Shown here piece by piece: positions 1,620-8,284 of a stretch of DNA of 64,000 nt. The translations under genes were made by a program, and so were the position numbers. Within the stretch, counting starts at the first letter, position 1; the number at the start of each line of letters is the position of its first letter. This stretch comes from Phragmitibacter sp. Lineage in GTDB: Bacteria > Verrucomicrobiota > Verrucomicrobiia > Verrucomicrobiales > Verrucomicrobiaceae. A model generated the notes under the pieces. It searched no databases, had not been told where the DNA came from, and was given only the letters and a program-made list of their open reading frames with translations. The stretch lies in contig JANYJH010000418.1 of the NCBI GenBank assembly GCA_025361865.1, positions 1 through 64,000 of the forward strand, given 5' to 3'.

Positions 1620-3305
1620 ATGAAAACCTCCTTCTTCAAGCCCATCCTCCTCCGCGCCTACCGTGCGGGAGTGCTGGTGCTCATCGCGTGGCTGCTGCAT
1701 CGGCAGCACGTTTGGTTGGCGGCTCAGAGTCACGCGCCGCATAGCCTTGAGGAGGTGAGGAAGTTCCTGCCGGAGGCGGCTTCGTTGGGTGACGTACAGC
1801 CGGAGAATGGCCTGCAACGGGTGCTAGATAAAGACGGTGAAACTGAGGGCTTCATCGCGGAGACTTCGCCGTTGTCTGACGACATCATCGGCTATGCGGG
1901 ACCGACGAATTCCTTGATCGTTTTCGATGTCAAAGCGCGCGTCGTAGGAGTGAAGCTGTTGCGGAGTGAGGACACGCCAGAGCACGTCAAAAAAATCACA
2001 GCGAGCGGGTCATTTTTTCAGGCGTTCAAGAAGCTTAAACTCGGCGCGATGGATGAGCCGCCCAAAGTGGATGCGGTGAGCGGGGCCACCTTGACCAGCG
2101 CGGCCATCACGGAAGGTGTGCTCAGAAGATTAGGTCAGCACGCGCCTTCTCTGCGGTTTCCCCAGGAGATCACGATCAAGGAAGTTCGCGCCTTGGTCCC
2201 TGATGCGCGGACGCTGGACCCGCTTCCACAAAAGCACGGCTTGCTGGCGGTAAAGGACAGCACAGGGAAAGTCATCGCCCAGGCTGGCCGCACGGCACCT
2301 AGCGCAGACAGCGTGATTGGGTATCGCGGGCCATCGGATTGCTTGTTCATTTTGAGTGCTGATGGCTTCAAGTTACAGGCGTTGGATTTGCGAAAGAGCT
2401 TCGATACGCCCGAGTATGTCGGCTATGTGACGGGGGATCAATTTTATCTCAAAAGCTTCAACGGCATGACCGTGGAGAGCCTCGCCGGCCTCGACTTTGA
2501 CAAGGCGGGCGTGGAAGGCGTTTCGGGGGCCACGCAGACCAGTTACGCGGTGGCGCAAGGCTTGAAGAAGCGGGCTAAGACGTTGATAGCTCCGCCGAAG
2601 AAGAGTTTGCTAAGTGCTTATCTTCCGAAGGCTGCTGACTGGGGGCTGCTGGCCGTCATCGTCGTGTCGCTGATCATGACATTCACTTCGTTGCGCGGTC
2701 GGTCATGGGCGCGCTGGTTGCATCAAAGCCTGCTCATTGGCTATGCGGGCCTGTATTGCGGGGCCTTGCTTTCTCAGGGCCTTCTCGTGGGCTGGGCCAA
2801 GCACGGGCTGCCTTGGCAAAACGCACCCTCTCTCGTTTTACTGGCGGCGTTCGCGCTTGCGGTGCCACTATTCTTTCGACGCCAATTCTACTGCCATCAC
2901 TATTGCCCTCATGGAGCCTTGCAGCAGTGGGTGGCGCATCGTTTGCCCTGGCAGATCAAGGTTCCTACGACCTTGGGCAACTGGCTGGAGAAGATCCCCG
3001 CAGCGCTGCTGCTGATGGTGCTGGTCATCGGCATACTCGGGCTGAAGGTGGACATCAATGGCCTAGAAGCCTTCGATGCGTGGCTCATCCGAGTAGCGGG
3101 AACGAGCGCCGTCGTCATCGCTGTCGTGGGTCTGCTGGCCTCGTTGTTCATGCCTATGGCCTACTGCCGATATGGATGCCCGACGGGCGCGCTGCTGAAG
3201 TTCGTTCGCTACACGGGCGAGGCGGATTGCTTTGGCAAAAAGGATGCCTGGGCACTGGGCTTCGTTTTGATCGCGGTCTTACTGCCGATGCTCCGTGGCC
3301 ACTGA
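1620..3305 (+). CDS. NosR/NapH-like membrane protein with two FMN-binding domains
   Basis: Predicted flavin and iron-sulfur electron carrier spanning the inner membrane, 561 residues. I chose ATG 1620 because the peptide then opens with a membrane anchor (about residues 5-25); 1587 is also open but overlaps glyS. Two extracytoplasmic FMN-binding domains follow, each with the covalent flavinylation motif SGAT (Thr157 in SGATLTS, Thr305 in SGATQTS). About six membrane helices come next, with two CxxxCP motifs (Cys425/429 and Cys516/520) of the NosR/NapH 4Fe-4S type. A C-terminal ferredoxin domain is absent, so it is shorter than NosR. The apbE gene starts 5 bases downstream and would supply the flavin attachment. 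The redox partner is unknown, and no nos or nqr genes are nearby. Confidence 0.85.
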   Translation: MKTSFFKPILLRAYRAGVLVLIAWLLHRQHVWLAAQSHAPHSLEEVRKFLPEAASLGDVQPENGLQRVLDKDGETEGFIAETSPLSDDIIGYAGPTNSLIVFDVKARVVGVKLLRSEDTPEHVKKITASGSFFQAFKKLKLGAMDEPPKVDAVSGATLTSAAITEGVLRRLGQHAPSLRFPQEITIKEVRALVPDARTLDPLPQKHGLLAVKDSTGKVIAQAGRTAPSADSVIGYRGPSDCLFILSADGFKLQALDLRKSFDTPEYVGYVTGDQFYLKSFNGMTVESLAGLDFDKAGVEGVSGATQTSYAVAQGLKKRAKTLIAPPKKSLLSAYLPKAADWGLLAVIVVSLIMTFTSLRGRSWARWLHQSLLIGYAGLYCGALLSQGLLVGWAKHGLPWQNAPSLVLLAAFALAVPLFFRRQFYCHHYCPHGALQQWVAHRLPWQIKVPTTLGNWLEKIPAALLLMVLVIGILGLKVDINGLEAFDAWLIRVAGTSAVVIAVVGLLASLFMPMAYCRYGCPTGALLKFVRYTGEADCFGKKDAWALGFVLIAVLLPMLRGH

Positions 3306-3310
3306 ACTTT

Positions 3311-4261
3311 ATGAAGTGGCTTCTCGCAGTTTCTTTCGCGCTGATACTGGCTGACTGCAAGCGCTCCCCTGCCCTTCTGAAGGTCTCCGGCAAAGCAATG
3401 GGCACCGCTTGGGAGGCCACGTTTATTGACTCGAAACTAAGCAAAAACGAAGCGCAGGATCTCATTCAAAACCGCATGGATGAACTGGAGGCGATCTTCA
3501 CGAACTGGCGTCCGAACTCCCCCGTCTCCCAGTTCAACGATTCCCGAAATACGAACTGGCAATCCGTGCCTCAAGAGTTGGTCGAGGTTGTGAAGTTCGC
3601 GCAAGAAATCAGCGGAGCGACGGACGGAGCCTTTGATGTGACTTGCGCGCCGCTCCTGGATCTATGGGGCTTCGGAGCGAAAGGCCGCGTGAAGACGCCG
3701 CCTTCAGATGAAGCTCTCGCCATGACTAAAGCGCACTGCGGCTGGCGGAAGCTGGAGTTTCAAATGAATCCGCCCGCACTCAGAAAGACGGACGCCGAAC
3801 TTCAGATCAACGTGTCCGCCTTGGTGGAAGGCTATGCGGGGGACGACATCAAGCGCCGGCTTCTCGCTCGCGGCATTGAAAACTTCCTGCTGAACTCAGG
3901 TGAGTTCACGGCTCACGGTTATAACGCGGAAGGTTTGCCGTGGAGAGTGGGCATTCAAGAACCCGATGAAGTCCAAGGAAGGACCGTCGCTGCGATGCCG
4001 CTTACGGATCAGGCCCTCGCCACCTCAGGAACCTATCGCCAGTTCTTTGAATACGAGGGCAAACGATACCCGCACGTCCTGGATGCCCGCACAGGAAAGC
4101 CCGTGACGCATCAGCTCCCATCTGTCAGCGTCATCGCGGATTCGTGTTTCATCGCGGATGGCTGGGCCACGGCGCTCTTGATCTTGGGGCCTGTGGAGGG
4201 TCCGGCACTGGCTAAGAAACGCGGCTTATCAGCCTTCTTCTTGGAAGCCAGAGAGCCTTGA
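3311..4261 (+). CDS. apbE: FAD:protein FMN transferase (ApbE family)
   Basis: ApbE transfers FMN from FAD to a threonine of exported FMN-binding domains in a Mg-dependent reaction outside the cytoplasmic membrane. The 316-residue product has a short hydrophobic signal ending in ILADC, probably a lipobox, although Asp just before the Cys is unusual. Family motifs are AMGTAWEATF near residue 30, LLNSGEFTAHG near 200, and GTYRQFFEYEGKRYPHVLDA near 245. The open frame extends upstream inside the previous gene, but ATG 3311 is the only start giving an export signal. It is 5 bases behind a protein with two flavinylation motifs, its obvious substrate. Confidence 0.92.
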   Translation: MKWLLAVSFALILADCKRSPALLKVSGKAMGTAWEATFIDSKLSKNEAQDLIQNRMDELEAIFTNWRPNSPVSQFNDSRNTNWQSVPQELVEVVKFAQEISGATDGAFDVTCAPLLDLWGFGAKGRVKTPPSDEALAMTKAHCGWRKLEFQMNPPALRKTDAELQINVSALVEGYAGDDIKRRLLARGIENFLLNSGEFTAHGYNAEGLPWRVGIQEPDEVQGRTVAAMPLTDQALATSGTYRQFFEYEGKRYPHVLDARTGKPVTHQLPSVSVIADSCFIADGWATALLILGPVEGPALAKKRGLSAFFLEAREP

Positions 4262-5612: not shown

Positions 5613-5624
5613 CTCTGACGCACT

Positions 5625-6095
5625 ATGTTCGACTACTCAAACAATGATCAGCGCGGTGGAAGCAGCCCCAGTGGGCAATGGGTGGGCACCATTCCGCTCC
5701 GCATCGGCAGTGCTTTGGTTCTGCTTTACCTCCACACCTGGCAGCAGGCCGTTTCCGGCTGGCGCTTCCTCTGGCATCAACAACCGTGGGATTTACCCGC
5801 GTTGATCACGAAGGCTTCACTTCCTTATCATGATCCTCTGGCCATCATCACCGCGACCATCGGCATCTCCGTGACCGTGAGTTGGCTTCTGGGATTCCTC
5901 ACGCGCTTCTTCGCCTTCATCTTCATCCCGCTTGTTTTAGGCGCGCTGTTGGCCGCGAATCGGCTCGGCGAATACACCGCTGCGGAGACGGCCATGCTCT
6001 ACCTATTCATCTCGTTCACCCTGCTCATCACGGGCTCCGGCTGGTTCTCCGCAGACGCGCTCTTCAAGATCAAGCGCACCAAGAAGAAGCGCTGA
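5625..6095 (+). CDS. DoxX-like integral membrane protein
   Basis: 156 residues with about four membrane helices (roughly 25-45, 72-92, 97-117, 122-142) and a basic C-terminus. The pattern PLRIGSALVLLYLHTW at the first helix, and the length, match the DoxX/SURF4-type small membrane family, whose members have varied or unknown roles. It lies 12 bases after the polysaccharide export gene. Its stop overlaps the ruvC start by one base (TGATG), so translation is probably coupled. No specific function can be assigned. Confidence 0.65.
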   Translation: MFDYSNNDQRGGSSPSGQWVGTIPLRIGSALVLLYLHTWQQAVSGWRFLWHQQPWDLPALITKASLPYHDPLAIITATIGISVTVSWLLGFLTRFFAFIFIPLVLGALLAANRLGEYTAAETAMLYLFISFTLLITGSGWFSADALFKIKRTKKKR

Positions 6096-6622
6096 TGCCC
6101 CCCGCTCCTTCAGTTCCGCTGCGCGTGCTCGCCGTTGATCCGGCCTTGCGAAAGACAGGCTACGCGATTCTGGAACAAAGCGGCAAGACCATCACGGCAG
6201 TGACTTATGGAGTCATCGAGAATCCGACGAAGCTACTGCAATCCGGCTGCCTCGTGGCCATTCGGGAGCGTCTCTCTGATCTCATCAAGGAGCATCGGCC
6301 CACAGAATGCGCCATCGAGAGCACCATCTTCGTGCAGAGTTATAAGACTGCGATCGTGCTCGGCAGCGTGCGCGGAGCCGTCCTCATCGCCGCCGCTGAA
6401 CACGGCCTGCCCATCTACGACTACGCTCCGCGCGAAGTGAAACAAGCCGCCGTCGGTCGCGGTGGCGCAGATAAGACGCAGGTCGCCTTCATGATCCGCT
6501 CGATGCTTCGACTTCGCGAGACACCACCAGCCGATGCGGCGGATGCCTTGGCAGTGGGCATCGCTCATTTCCAGGCAGCTAGTGGCCATGCGGCAAGGCA
6601 GGATGTAAGGGCGAGGGCTTGA
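6095..6622 (+). CDS. ruvC: Holliday junction resolvase RuvC
   Basis: The RuvC dimer cuts Holliday junctions bound by RuvAB during recombinational repair. The 175-residue protein starts at ATG 6095, overlapping the previous stop by one base; a longer frame exists but only this start gives a normal N-terminus. The four catalytic acids are present: Asp15 (LAVDPALRKTGYAIL), Glu75 (AIESTIF), Asp147 and Asp150 (DAADAL). The APREVKQAAVGRGGADK segment is the usual DNA-contact region. ruvA and ruvB are not in the window. The gene converges on the zinc-binding lipoprotein gene with a 19-base gap. Confidence 0.95.
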   Translation: MPPAPSVPLRVLAVDPALRKTGYAILEQSGKTITAVTYGVIENPTKLLQSGCLVAIRERLSDLIKEHRPTECAIESTIFVQSYKTAIVLGSVRGAVLIAAAEHGLPIYDYAPREVKQAAVGRGGADKTQVAFMIRSMLRLRETPPADAADALAVGIAHFQAASGHAARQDVRARA

Positions 6623-6641
6623 TGGACAGACGCTCTCGATT

Positions 6642-7556
6642 CTACTCCACTGCCTCCATCGCTTTCACATTCTCCTTCATCACATCCAGCCAAGTGCCTT
6701 TGTCGGGCACGTTCGCGCAGGGGTCGAAAACCACGCTGCTCAAGTTCAGCGCTTTGATCTTTTCCACGGATTCTTTCGCGGGCTCTCCCTCCCAGACGAA
6801 CCACTTGGCAGGATGCGTGGCGATGATCTTCTTCAAGTCGTCCATCTGCGCTTCCGTCGGCACCTCTTCCGGCTCCCAGAGCACATGCTTGAGATTGATA
6901 TGGTAGCGTCGCGCCCAGTATTGATAAATGGGATGTGACGCCATCATGGGCTGATCCGCCAGTTTCTTCCCAACGGTCTGCATTCTGGCATCCAACTCCA
7001 ACAGTTCACGCTTCAGCAAATCGAAGTTCAACGCGAACATCTCGATGCTCTCCGGCTTGAGCTTTTGTAAGGCCGCGCAGATGGCATCGGCTTGGGAGAG
7101 TGCTTGATCAAAGTCGAGCCACGTCGTGAAGGCGGTGCCGTTGTGAGAGTGCGTTCCATCCTTCCCGTGGCTGTGAGTGACTGCATCCTTGATCTCAATG
7201 AAGCGGTCATGGAAGCCGGAAGAAGTGTCAACCATACGGCTCTCTGGCAAGGTCACCTTCTCCGCCCACTTCGAGTAAGTCGCGCCGTTCATGAGGATCA
7301 TATCCGCCTGCTGAAACGCCGCTATTTGGGCGTCATTCGGTTGCCAGAACGCCGGGTCTTGATCCTTCGGTGCGGGGAACACGACATCGACTTCTGTCGA
7401 GCCGATACGCTCCGCGAAGTAGGCCAGCGGATAGTTCGTTACGAAGATCTGCGGGCGGCTGCTCTTCTTCGGTGTCGCTTCTGAGGTTGGTGGTGCTTTC
7501 TTGCAACCGCAAATCAGCGCCGCAGTGATCAGGGTAAGGGCCAGGGTATTTCTCAT
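6642..7556 (-). CDS. Zinc/metal-binding lipoprotein (ZnuA/TroA family)
   Basis: Predicted solute-binding lipoprotein that captures Zn2+ (or Mn2+) in the periplasm. 304 residues: signal ending in ALICGC (lipidated Cys18), then a TroA fold of two lobes joined by a long helix. A His-rich loop of the ZnuA type (HSHGKDGTHSHNG) is visible around residue 130. Candidate metal ligands are His in ASHPIYQYWARRY and Asp in VVFDPCAN. No ABC permease or ATPase gene is adjacent, so it must work with a transporter encoded elsewhere. Its start overlaps the upstream GDPD gene by four bases (ATGA). Confidence 0.8.
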   Translation of the reverse strand: MRNTLALTLITAALICGCKKAPPTSEATPKKSSRPQIFVTNYPLAYFAERIGSTEVDVVFPAPKDQDPAFWQPNDAQIAAFQQADMILMNGATYSKWAEKVTLPESRMVDTSSGFHDRFIEIKDAVTHSHGKDGTHSHNGTAFTTWLDFDQALSQADAICAALQKLKPESIEMFALNFDLLKRELLELDARMQTVGKKLADQPMMASHPIYQYWARRYHINLKHVLWEPEEVPTEAQMDDLKKIIATHPAKWFVWEGEPAKESVEKIKALNLSSVVFDPCANVPDKGTWLDVMKENVKAMEAVE

Positions 7557-8284
7557 GGGTTCTCCTCTAGATAACGGAGGATCGACCCTGGTGCATTCGT
7601 CATAATGCCATCCACGCCCGCATTGATGAACTGCCGCGCTCTTCGGCCATCATCTACAGTCCAGACATTCAGCTTCAGGCCCGCATCATGAACAGATTGG
7701 ATCATCTCTCCATCCAAAGCCCATTCATGCGAGATATTGAGCGCATCAAATGAAGCGCTGATCGTCTTTTCAAAAATCTTCTCCCATCGTGGTGACTTCC
7801 AGGGACGGTCAATGGTCCAACCGACAGCGCAGGGAAGTTGCTGTTTGATGGCCAGCATCACCTCGTAATCGAAACCGATCAGCACCATCTGTTCGGGTGT
7901 GAGCGGGCTCGCTTCCAAAACACGTTCGAGTTCAGGAAGGATCTCCATGCCTGTCTTGATCTCAATGTAAACACGCAGATCTGCTGGCACGGTGGCTAGG
8001 ACCTCTTCGAGTAACGGAATCTTCTCACCACTCCATCGCGCGGACTTCCATGACCCCGCGTCCAGTTGTTGGAGAGCCTTGGCTGTTCGGAGCTTTACCA
8101 TGTCCACTGAGCCTGCCGTGCGACGCAGGTCCTCATCATGAATCACCATGATACAACCTTCTTTTGAGAGGCGGACATCCAACTCCACTCCAGTAGCACC
8201 TTGTTCCCAAGCGAGCCGGAATGCAGCCAGAGTATTCTCCGGTGCATCCTGCGAAGCTCCACGGTGGGCTATGATTTCAGCCAT
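7553..8284 (-). CDS. Glycerophosphodiester phosphodiesterase (UgpQ/GlpQ family)
   Basis: Hydrolyses glycerophosphodiesters to glycerol 3-phosphate and an alcohol. 243 residues with no signal peptide, so probably cytosolic like UgpQ. The TIM-barrel active-site motifs are present at the N-terminus: IAHRGASQDAPENT, then GATGVELDVRLSKEG and VIHDEDLRRT, which supply the catalytic His pair and the metal-binding Glu/Asp. The C-terminal LNVWTVDDGRRARQFINAGV is also typical. It is translationally coupled to the metal-binding lipoprotein gene and divergent from the porin-urt operon. Confidence 0.9.
   Translation of the reverse strand: MAEIIAHRGASQDAPENTLAAFRLAWEQGATGVELDVRLSKEGCIMVIHDEDLRRTAGSVDMVKLRTAKALQQLDAGSWKSARWSGEKIPLLEEVLATVPADLRVYIEIKTGMEILPELERVLEASPLTPEQMVLIGFDYEVMLAIKQQLPCAVGWTIDRPWKSPRWEKIFEKTISASFDALNISHEWALDGEMIQSVHDAGLKLNVWTVDDGRRARQFINAGVDGIMTNAPGSILRYLEENP

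Follow-up and report, generated by a model that had tools for sequence, protein, structure and literature searches.

The window analysed here is a stretch of 64,000 nucleotides from Phragmitibacter sp. (Verrucomicrobiaceae; contig JANYJH010000418.1). It carries two adjacent genes, one for a membrane protein with two predicted flavin mononucleotide (FMN) sites, here called the conduit, and one for an ApbE flavin transferase. The class of conduit is not new; what is new is its partner, very probably a secreted oxidoreductase dependent on flavin adenine dinucleotide (FAD). Domains, invariant sites, co-occurrence and gene adjacency were established by computation; flavinylation itself and physical contact of the two proteins are inferred. 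Outside the window's own family, the conduit gene usually adjoins the gene of this enzyme.

Co-occurrence and adjacency of the conduit and FAD genes

A profile of the conduit family (A1) was run on 387 genomes of the phylum and matched 21 at an expectation value (E) of 1e-30, 19 of them strongly (E <=1e-89). Fourteen conduit loci, all outside the own family, were fetched. At eight of these a FAD_oxidored protein was encoded within ~3 kb of the conduit (Pfam was run on three), and at a ninth (G359) profile searches placed the FAD gene 490 bases away. Among the remaining five, G388, G377 and G226 carry the FAD gene on another contig. The last two, G251 with its single FMN site and G233, truncated where its contig stops, gave the weak conduit matches. 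A FAD profile (A2) was built from eight proteins. In the window's genome (G000) it gave one match at E <=1e-40, on contig C161 (E 2.5e-266).

For the sister family, a sample of 195 genomes was drawn evenly. The conduit was found in 50 genomes and FAD matches at E 1e-100 in 83, from which a score gap (828 to 708 bits) split off the 50 strong ones (E <=1e-240). Strong FAD match and conduit occurred together in 49 genomes (50 with each), and the conduit and FAD genes lay <=5 kb apart in 42 of 50. The Fisher value of this co-occurrence was 7e-44, a figure that ignores kinship. When FAD presence was shuffled within genera, the joint count averaged 35.8 and never exceeded 44, and 0 of 20000 trials reached the observed 49; the shuffle used the 104 of 195 genomes with a listed genus, and the other 91 had no match. 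Eight genera (g13, g14, g15, g16, g209, g210, g211, g213) hold both states, with FAD gene and conduit jointly present or absent. The 19 phylum-sample genomes whose conduit match was strong all fall within the 21 with FAD at E <=1e-250 (three candidates scored per genome; 14 of the 19 also belong to the two family sets). The gene order FAD, conduit, ApbE, with genes overlapping or nearly so, was seen in loci L161, L162, L170, L171, L112, L114 and L116. In the own family, conduit and FAD gene (E 1e-40) were both present in 62 of 68 genomes. Neither was found in G057 and G062, the conduit alone in G032, and the FAD gene alone in G005, G066 and G063 (a weaker partial match). Five of these six assemblies are 52-87% complete, and G062 is 92% complete.

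Several observations weigh against the partnership. In the own family none of the 19 pairs compared were adjacent, and the two that share a contig lie >200 kb apart. A FAD gene without conduit was found in the phylum sample (G074 and G087 at the strict threshold, 74 of 93 genomes at E 1e-100), in G519 of the sister family, and in the incomplete own-family assemblies G005 and G066. The strict thresholds were chosen after the score gap had been seen. Finally, G470 has conduit and ApbE and no FAD match at E 1e-100. The absence of a strong match in this genome would also fit a conduit that works with more than one extracytoplasmic partner, or with a different one (metal, thiols, other enzymes), with the FAD co-occurrence caused by shared lifestyle or linkage. 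So would the fact that, besides ApbE, no conduit neighbour is widely common across own-family genera, and that the co-occurrence test covered one candidate partner only. Joint presence and absence in the eight genera and adjacency in the sister family argue against this explanation, which was judged distinctly improbable. No paper on a pairing of FAD enzyme and conduit was found in the open-licence literature (supplements lay outside the scope).

The FAD protein of the window's genome matches PF12831 (E 1.2e-67) and Golvesin_C (E 2e-19) and has, by eye, a signal-like N-terminus. Its structural model has a predicted local distance difference test score (pLDDT) of 86.7 and a predicted template modelling score (pTM) of 0.78. 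Structural relatives of the FAD core were thiazole synthase, lipoamide dehydrogenase, flavocytochrome c3 and urocanate reductase (Z 16.3-17.6). Because dehydrogenases, disulphide reductases and periplasmic reductases score alike, the fold cannot assign the reaction. The first-ranked Foldseek rows, Cry proteins with a root mean square deviation (rmsd) of 27-29, were disregarded for function. The C-terminal module matches residues 920-1036 of xanthan lyase 6f2p by sequence (E 1.4e-10) and the same protein by structure (136 columns, rmsd 2.2, 27% identity). A two-module 6f2p row (Z 18.7, rmsd 26.9 over 260 residues) was set aside, since the modules sit differently, and an assignment to CBM84 was dropped because that module belongs to an endo-xanthanase and not to xanthan lyase (PMC10049358). 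Shorter FAD proteins of several sister-family genomes are without the C-terminal module. For the N-terminal module, no convincing sequence match was found in the PDB. When a profile of the PF12831 subfamily was compared with solved structures, the best 60 of 246 matches were confined to the surroundings of the FAD-binding motif.

The gene pair and its place among known systems

Features of the pair are listed in Table 1. As the preliminary description had reported, 5 bases separate the conduit stop from the apbE ATG, both genes lying on the plus strand. The ApbE frame is open upstream through the end of the conduit (window 2705-3310; an open reading frame (ORF) of 518 aa), and the export-like segment is consistent with a start at 3311. 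Pfam assigned FMN_bind (E 6.4e-17) and Fer4_5 (PF12801; E 1.9e-12) to the conduit, each in two stretches. Both SGAT sites described earlier were recovered, at residues 154-157 and 302-305, with Thr157 and Thr305 as putative FMN acceptors. The two FMN domains are a tandem duplication, with 31% identity over 134 positions (E 3e-21, two-sequence comparison). Domain 1 aligned with RnfG, and domain 2 with RnfG and NqrC (Z 8.8-12.1, 130-140 residues, rmsd 3.1-3.7).

Table 1. Features of the conduit-ApbE gene pair (window positions) and the FAD enzyme gene of the same genome.
Feature	Position	Strand	Basis
Membrane conduit, 561 aa: transmembrane helix (TM) 1, two FMN_bind domains, six further TM helices, two CxxxCP motifs	1620..3305	+	ORF, Pfam, alignment, hydropathy
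ApbE flavin transferase, 316 aa, N-terminal export-like segment	3311..4261	+	Pfam E 5.1e-77
TM1, residues 8-26, signal anchor, N-terminus inside	1641..1697	+	hydropathy; positive N-terminus
FMN_bind domain 1, ~residues 41-177, RnfG-like fold	1740..2150	+	Pfam; VIA-align Z 11.7 to 8ahx_G, 130 aligned, rmsd 3.1
Thr157 codon, predicted FMN attachment site 1 (SGAT)	2088..2090	+	motif, alignment
FMN_bind domain 2, ~residues 181-327, RnfG/NqrC-like fold	2160..2600	+	VIA-align Z 12.1 to 9eri_G, 137 aligned, rmsd 3.7
Thr305 codon, predicted FMN attachment site 2 (SGAT)	2532..2534	+	motif, alignment
NapH-like membrane part, TM2-TM7, residues 338-560	2631..3299	+	Fer4_5, hydropathy; model low-confidence in places
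First CxxxCP motif, C425-P430, predicted cytoplasmic side	2892..2909	+	alignment, hydropathy
Second CxxxCP motif, C516-P521, predicted cytoplasmic side	3165..3182	+	alignment, hydropathy
FAD enzyme of the window's genome, 788 aa	G000:C161 (locus L133) 5620-7986	-	PF12831 + Golvesin_C

The CxxxCP motifs read CHHYCP (from residue 425) and CRYGCP (from residue 516). Thr157, Thr305, Cys425, Cys429, Cys516 and Cys520 were invariant in 38 of 38 aligned own-family sequences, window included (39 were extracted; one with a truncated start was omitted), so that sites and motifs are not due to chance. Of the two iron-sulfur motifs proposed earlier, the motifs themselves held up, and iron-sulfur binding is a Pfam label only. 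For the relative PceC, the authors were undecided on iron-sulfur at CX3CP and thought disulphides likelier (PMC5928378); the conduit motifs may carry clusters or disulphides.

Hydropathy gave seven hydrophobic helices. Both CxxxCP motifs lie in Lys/Arg-rich loops, which by the positive-inside rule places these loops inside and the C-terminus outside. Conduit-ApbE fusions (L056, L155, L108) agree with an outside C-terminus, because the ApbEs of flavinylated systems are described as extracytosolic (PMC8238504). The FMN domains are likewise predicted to be extracytosolic. The AlphaFold model of the conduit (mean pLDDT 75.1, pTM 0.57, several membrane segments <50) was used for the FMN domains only, owing to its low confidence elsewhere.

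By these features conduit and ApbE have the architecture of a flavinylated NapH-like system, a class already described by Meheust et al. 2021 (PMC8238504), and would be expected to hold covalent FMN and to exchange electrons with quinone. The class is defined there by a PF12801 or K19339 membrane protein with several TM helices that has an N-terminal extracytosolic FMN-binding domain, or a linked FMN-binding protein, and belongs to an ApbE gene cluster. The conduit combines the PF12801 match and several TM helices with an N-terminal FMN domain, and its gene clusters with apbE. According to the same survey, the reactions of most NapH-like flavinylated proteins remain unassigned. Compared with the systems it covers, the window's conduit stands out by its two FMN domains and by its predicted partner, a secreted PF12831 FAD enzyme, of which the main text makes no mention. 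Closest in architecture among NapH-like proteins, as far as sequence features go, are RdhC/PceC (PMC5928378). Like the conduit, they carry two CX3CP motifs, have an extracytoplasmic FMN domain that follows the first helix and precedes the second, and lack a C-terminal Fe-S domain, so that this kind of conduit is already known. Unlike the conduit, RdhC/PceC have one FMN domain and six predicted helices in that account, and their partner is a reductive dehalogenase. The reductive dehalogenase family PF13486 matched 0 of 68 own-family genomes; control genomes gave no match either.

NosR also has an N-terminal FMN domain and a NapH-like membrane part with CX3CP motifs, and the best NCBIfam label of the conduit was NosR, at 55.6 bits. 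This would make the conduit an accessory of nitrous oxide reductase, a role in keeping with nosZ matches (TIGR04246) over cut-off in 3 of 68 own-family genomes. The label falls far under the model cut-off of 1000, and NosR differs by its two C-terminal 4Fe-4S motifs and its nos context, neither of which was found for the conduit. No Pfam ferredoxin match was obtained past the second CxxxCP motif, which ends 40 residues from the C-terminus; Pfam and NCBIfam scans thus agree with the earlier view of a NosR-like protein without the terminal ferredoxin domain. That view had also seen no nos context. TIGR04246, the sole nosZ model used, gave no match in the window's genome (91.5% complete), and its three own-family genomes contrast with 63 of 68 for the conduit. 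At E 0.001 it matched 13 of 68, the other ten weakly, and it was over cut-off in 0 of 14 control genomes. The NosR-type role is already contradicted and was considered extremely improbable. In one of the three genomes (G003:C7), nosZ over cut-off lies on the conduit's contig, ~44 kb apart. From RnfG/NqrC, whose fold each FMN domain resembles, the conduit differs by the fusion of these domains to a NapH-like part. The reported lack of nqr or rnf context was also confirmed, with no Rnf/Nqr families (Pfam) in ApbE and the three downstream neighbours tested.

Electron direction and substrate

In the proposed mechanism, the gene pair would supply the membrane-bound half of a respiratory module that works outside the cytoplasm, with the secreted FAD enzyme as its oxidising side and electrons that run inward to quinone; we regard this reading as evenly balanced. 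The FAD enzyme (G000:C161) would act beyond the cytoplasmic membrane and oxidise a carbohydrate or a derivative of one. Electrons would pass from FAD to the FMN at Thr157 and/or Thr305, both FMNs being attached by the neighbouring ApbE. They would then cross the seven-helix NapH-like part, where the two CxxxCP motifs lie at the inner face, and finally reduce the quinone pool.

Of the preliminary description, which had suggested that electrons may leave for an extracytoplasmic acceptor, the conduit role was retained and the outward delivery was judged probably wrong. The type of partner (a secreted FAD oxidoreductase, a carbohydrate-enzyme-like module, the sugar-acid genes of one relative) makes entry from a donor likelier than delivery, and an inward direction is moderately favoured. 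The same partners could operate in reverse, with quinol electrons passing via the conduit and its two FMNs to a secreted FAD enzyme that reduces an organic acceptor. Flavocytochrome c3 and urocanate reductase are extracytoplasmic FAD enzymes served by a second redox domain, with electrons running opposite to the proposed way. The FAD core resembles both (1jrx_A, Z 16.4, 226 aligned, rmsd 3.4; 6t85, Z 16.3, 216 aligned, rmsd 3.1), which counts against the inward mechanism. The present enzyme differs from them in combining PF12831 with beta-sandwich modules and in having its flavin partner as a separate membrane protein. Dehydrogenases and disulphide reductases score equally (Z 16-17.6), and the fold is undecisive. 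The characterised NapH-like systems serve nitrous oxide and organohalide reduction, in line with the reverse direction, whereas NapH-like clusters with an ethanol oxidase occur in 172 genomes (both PMC8238504). The carbohydrate-enzyme-like module on the FAD protein and the genes at L108, described below, fit oxidation, and the reverse direction is held to be unlikely.

At L108, a four-gene set on the facing strand encodes a SMP-30/gluconolactonase-type protein, a Zn-dehydrogenase, a gluconate 5-dehydrogenase-like short-chain dehydrogenase/reductase (SDR) and a GntP permease. A gap of 3 bases separates its end from the conduit-ApbE gene, which runs towards it and is preceded by the FAD gene. 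Lactonase-type protein, permease and aldonate-type dehydrogenases would suit oxidation. The Zn-dehydrogenase has an orthologue (52.6%) close to the FAD gene of the window's genome, and the SDR has one (66%) close to that of L136. A LacI-type regulator adjoins the FAD gene divergently in L146 and L148 (2 of 17 loci with the FAD gene called), and a sulfatase and a heparinase-like protein adjoin the FAD/conduit locus of L117. Together with the module match, these neighbours favour, on modest evidence, oxidation and a carbohydrate-type substrate, which we take as somewhat probable. Two points tell against the proposed mechanism: a single genome holds the whole sugar-acid cluster, of which the Zn-dehydrogenase and the SDR were each seen again at one other FAD locus, and no enzyme assay for this PF12831 subfamily was found in the open-licence literature.

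The L117 conduit, with its FAD neighbour, has 421 aa and one FMN domain, so the pairing does not require a second FMN. In L107 and L108 the flavinylation consensus drifts, by eye, to AGST/AGAT. Single conduit-ApbE polypeptides of 801-870 aa are encoded at L056:8944-11349, L108:7923-10535 and L155:7614-10223, in three different families; L107 and L109 also carry the fusion (L109 in one frame by tblastn). At L154:6228-9746 (minus strand, G499), FAD oxidoreductase and conduit share one 1172-aa frame, followed by ApbE. This may be a real fusion or a frameshift in an overlap, and the fusions of conduit and ApbE are the better founded of the two kinds. It was not taken as proof, since relatives' genes often overlap out of frame and one indel fuses them. 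The fusion would also be topologically awkward, because a signal peptide followed by conduit helix 1 puts the FMN domains on the wrong side. In L159, L168 and L169 a Na/Pi-cotransporter-PhoU gene stands between FAD gene and conduit on the same strand (Pfam on L168 only). At L078:4671-6782 (minus strand, G044) a protein distantly related to the FAD enzyme (24-28% identity) is encoded near the conduit, as is an ApbE.

Distribution in the own family and significance

The conduit homologues of the own family show 45-59% identity in long matches. Two separate full-length copies were found in none of the genomes; G035, G038, G050 and G054 hold fragments only. The five named conduit loci belong to Verrucomicrobium (2), Prosthecobacter (1) and unclassified Verrucomicrobiaceae metagenome-assembled genomes (2). 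Neighbourhoods were compared in 41 loci (40 fetched plus the window), in 39 of which the gene caller found the conduit. The apbE gene was directly downstream in 11 and fused to the conduit in 1. Three further neighbours recur by eye: a protein of 785 aa at 13 loci, one that is rhomboid-like at 11 and one that is recombinase-like at 8. All were judged bystanders, and so was a glyS-like gene that precedes the conduit at 4 loci (by eye), those of the window and a few relatives. At L059:11477-13606, downstream of the conduit and close to it, a 710-aa ORF combines a divergent ApbE-like domain (27% identity) with subsequent hydrophobic segments.

Fer4_5 matched no protein of the window's genome but the conduit, and FMN_bind matched the conduit and one other protein. 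The other (C36; L001:1465-2001, minus strand) has 178 aa and bears an SGAT site. An ApbE is encoded nearby and an outer-membrane-like protein (by eye) adjoins it; this is a separate flavinylated system. ApbE matches number six, two of them partial (C31, C324, C36, C72, C281, C360); set against two FMN_bind proteins, some ApbEs should have other targets.

Carbohydrate degradation by these bacteria is ecologically important. With the secreted FAD enzyme, one large group of NapH-like flavinylated proteins gains a concrete partner and a probable direction, and an activity is suggested for a PF12831 subfamily. Under the proposed mechanism, electrons from extracellular oxidation would reach the respiratory chain without cytochromes. 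The mechanism is tentatively put forward as an undescribed module, in which a secreted FAD dehydrogenase bearing carbohydrate-enzyme-like modules would be wired by a double-flavin NapH-like conduit to quinone and sugars would be oxidised outside without pyrroloquinoline quinone or cytochrome c. If true, the module would be near-universal in one family, its parts would come and go together in the sister family, and it would be a flavin counterpart of periplasmic glucose dehydrogenase, its conduit sometimes fused to its own ApbE.

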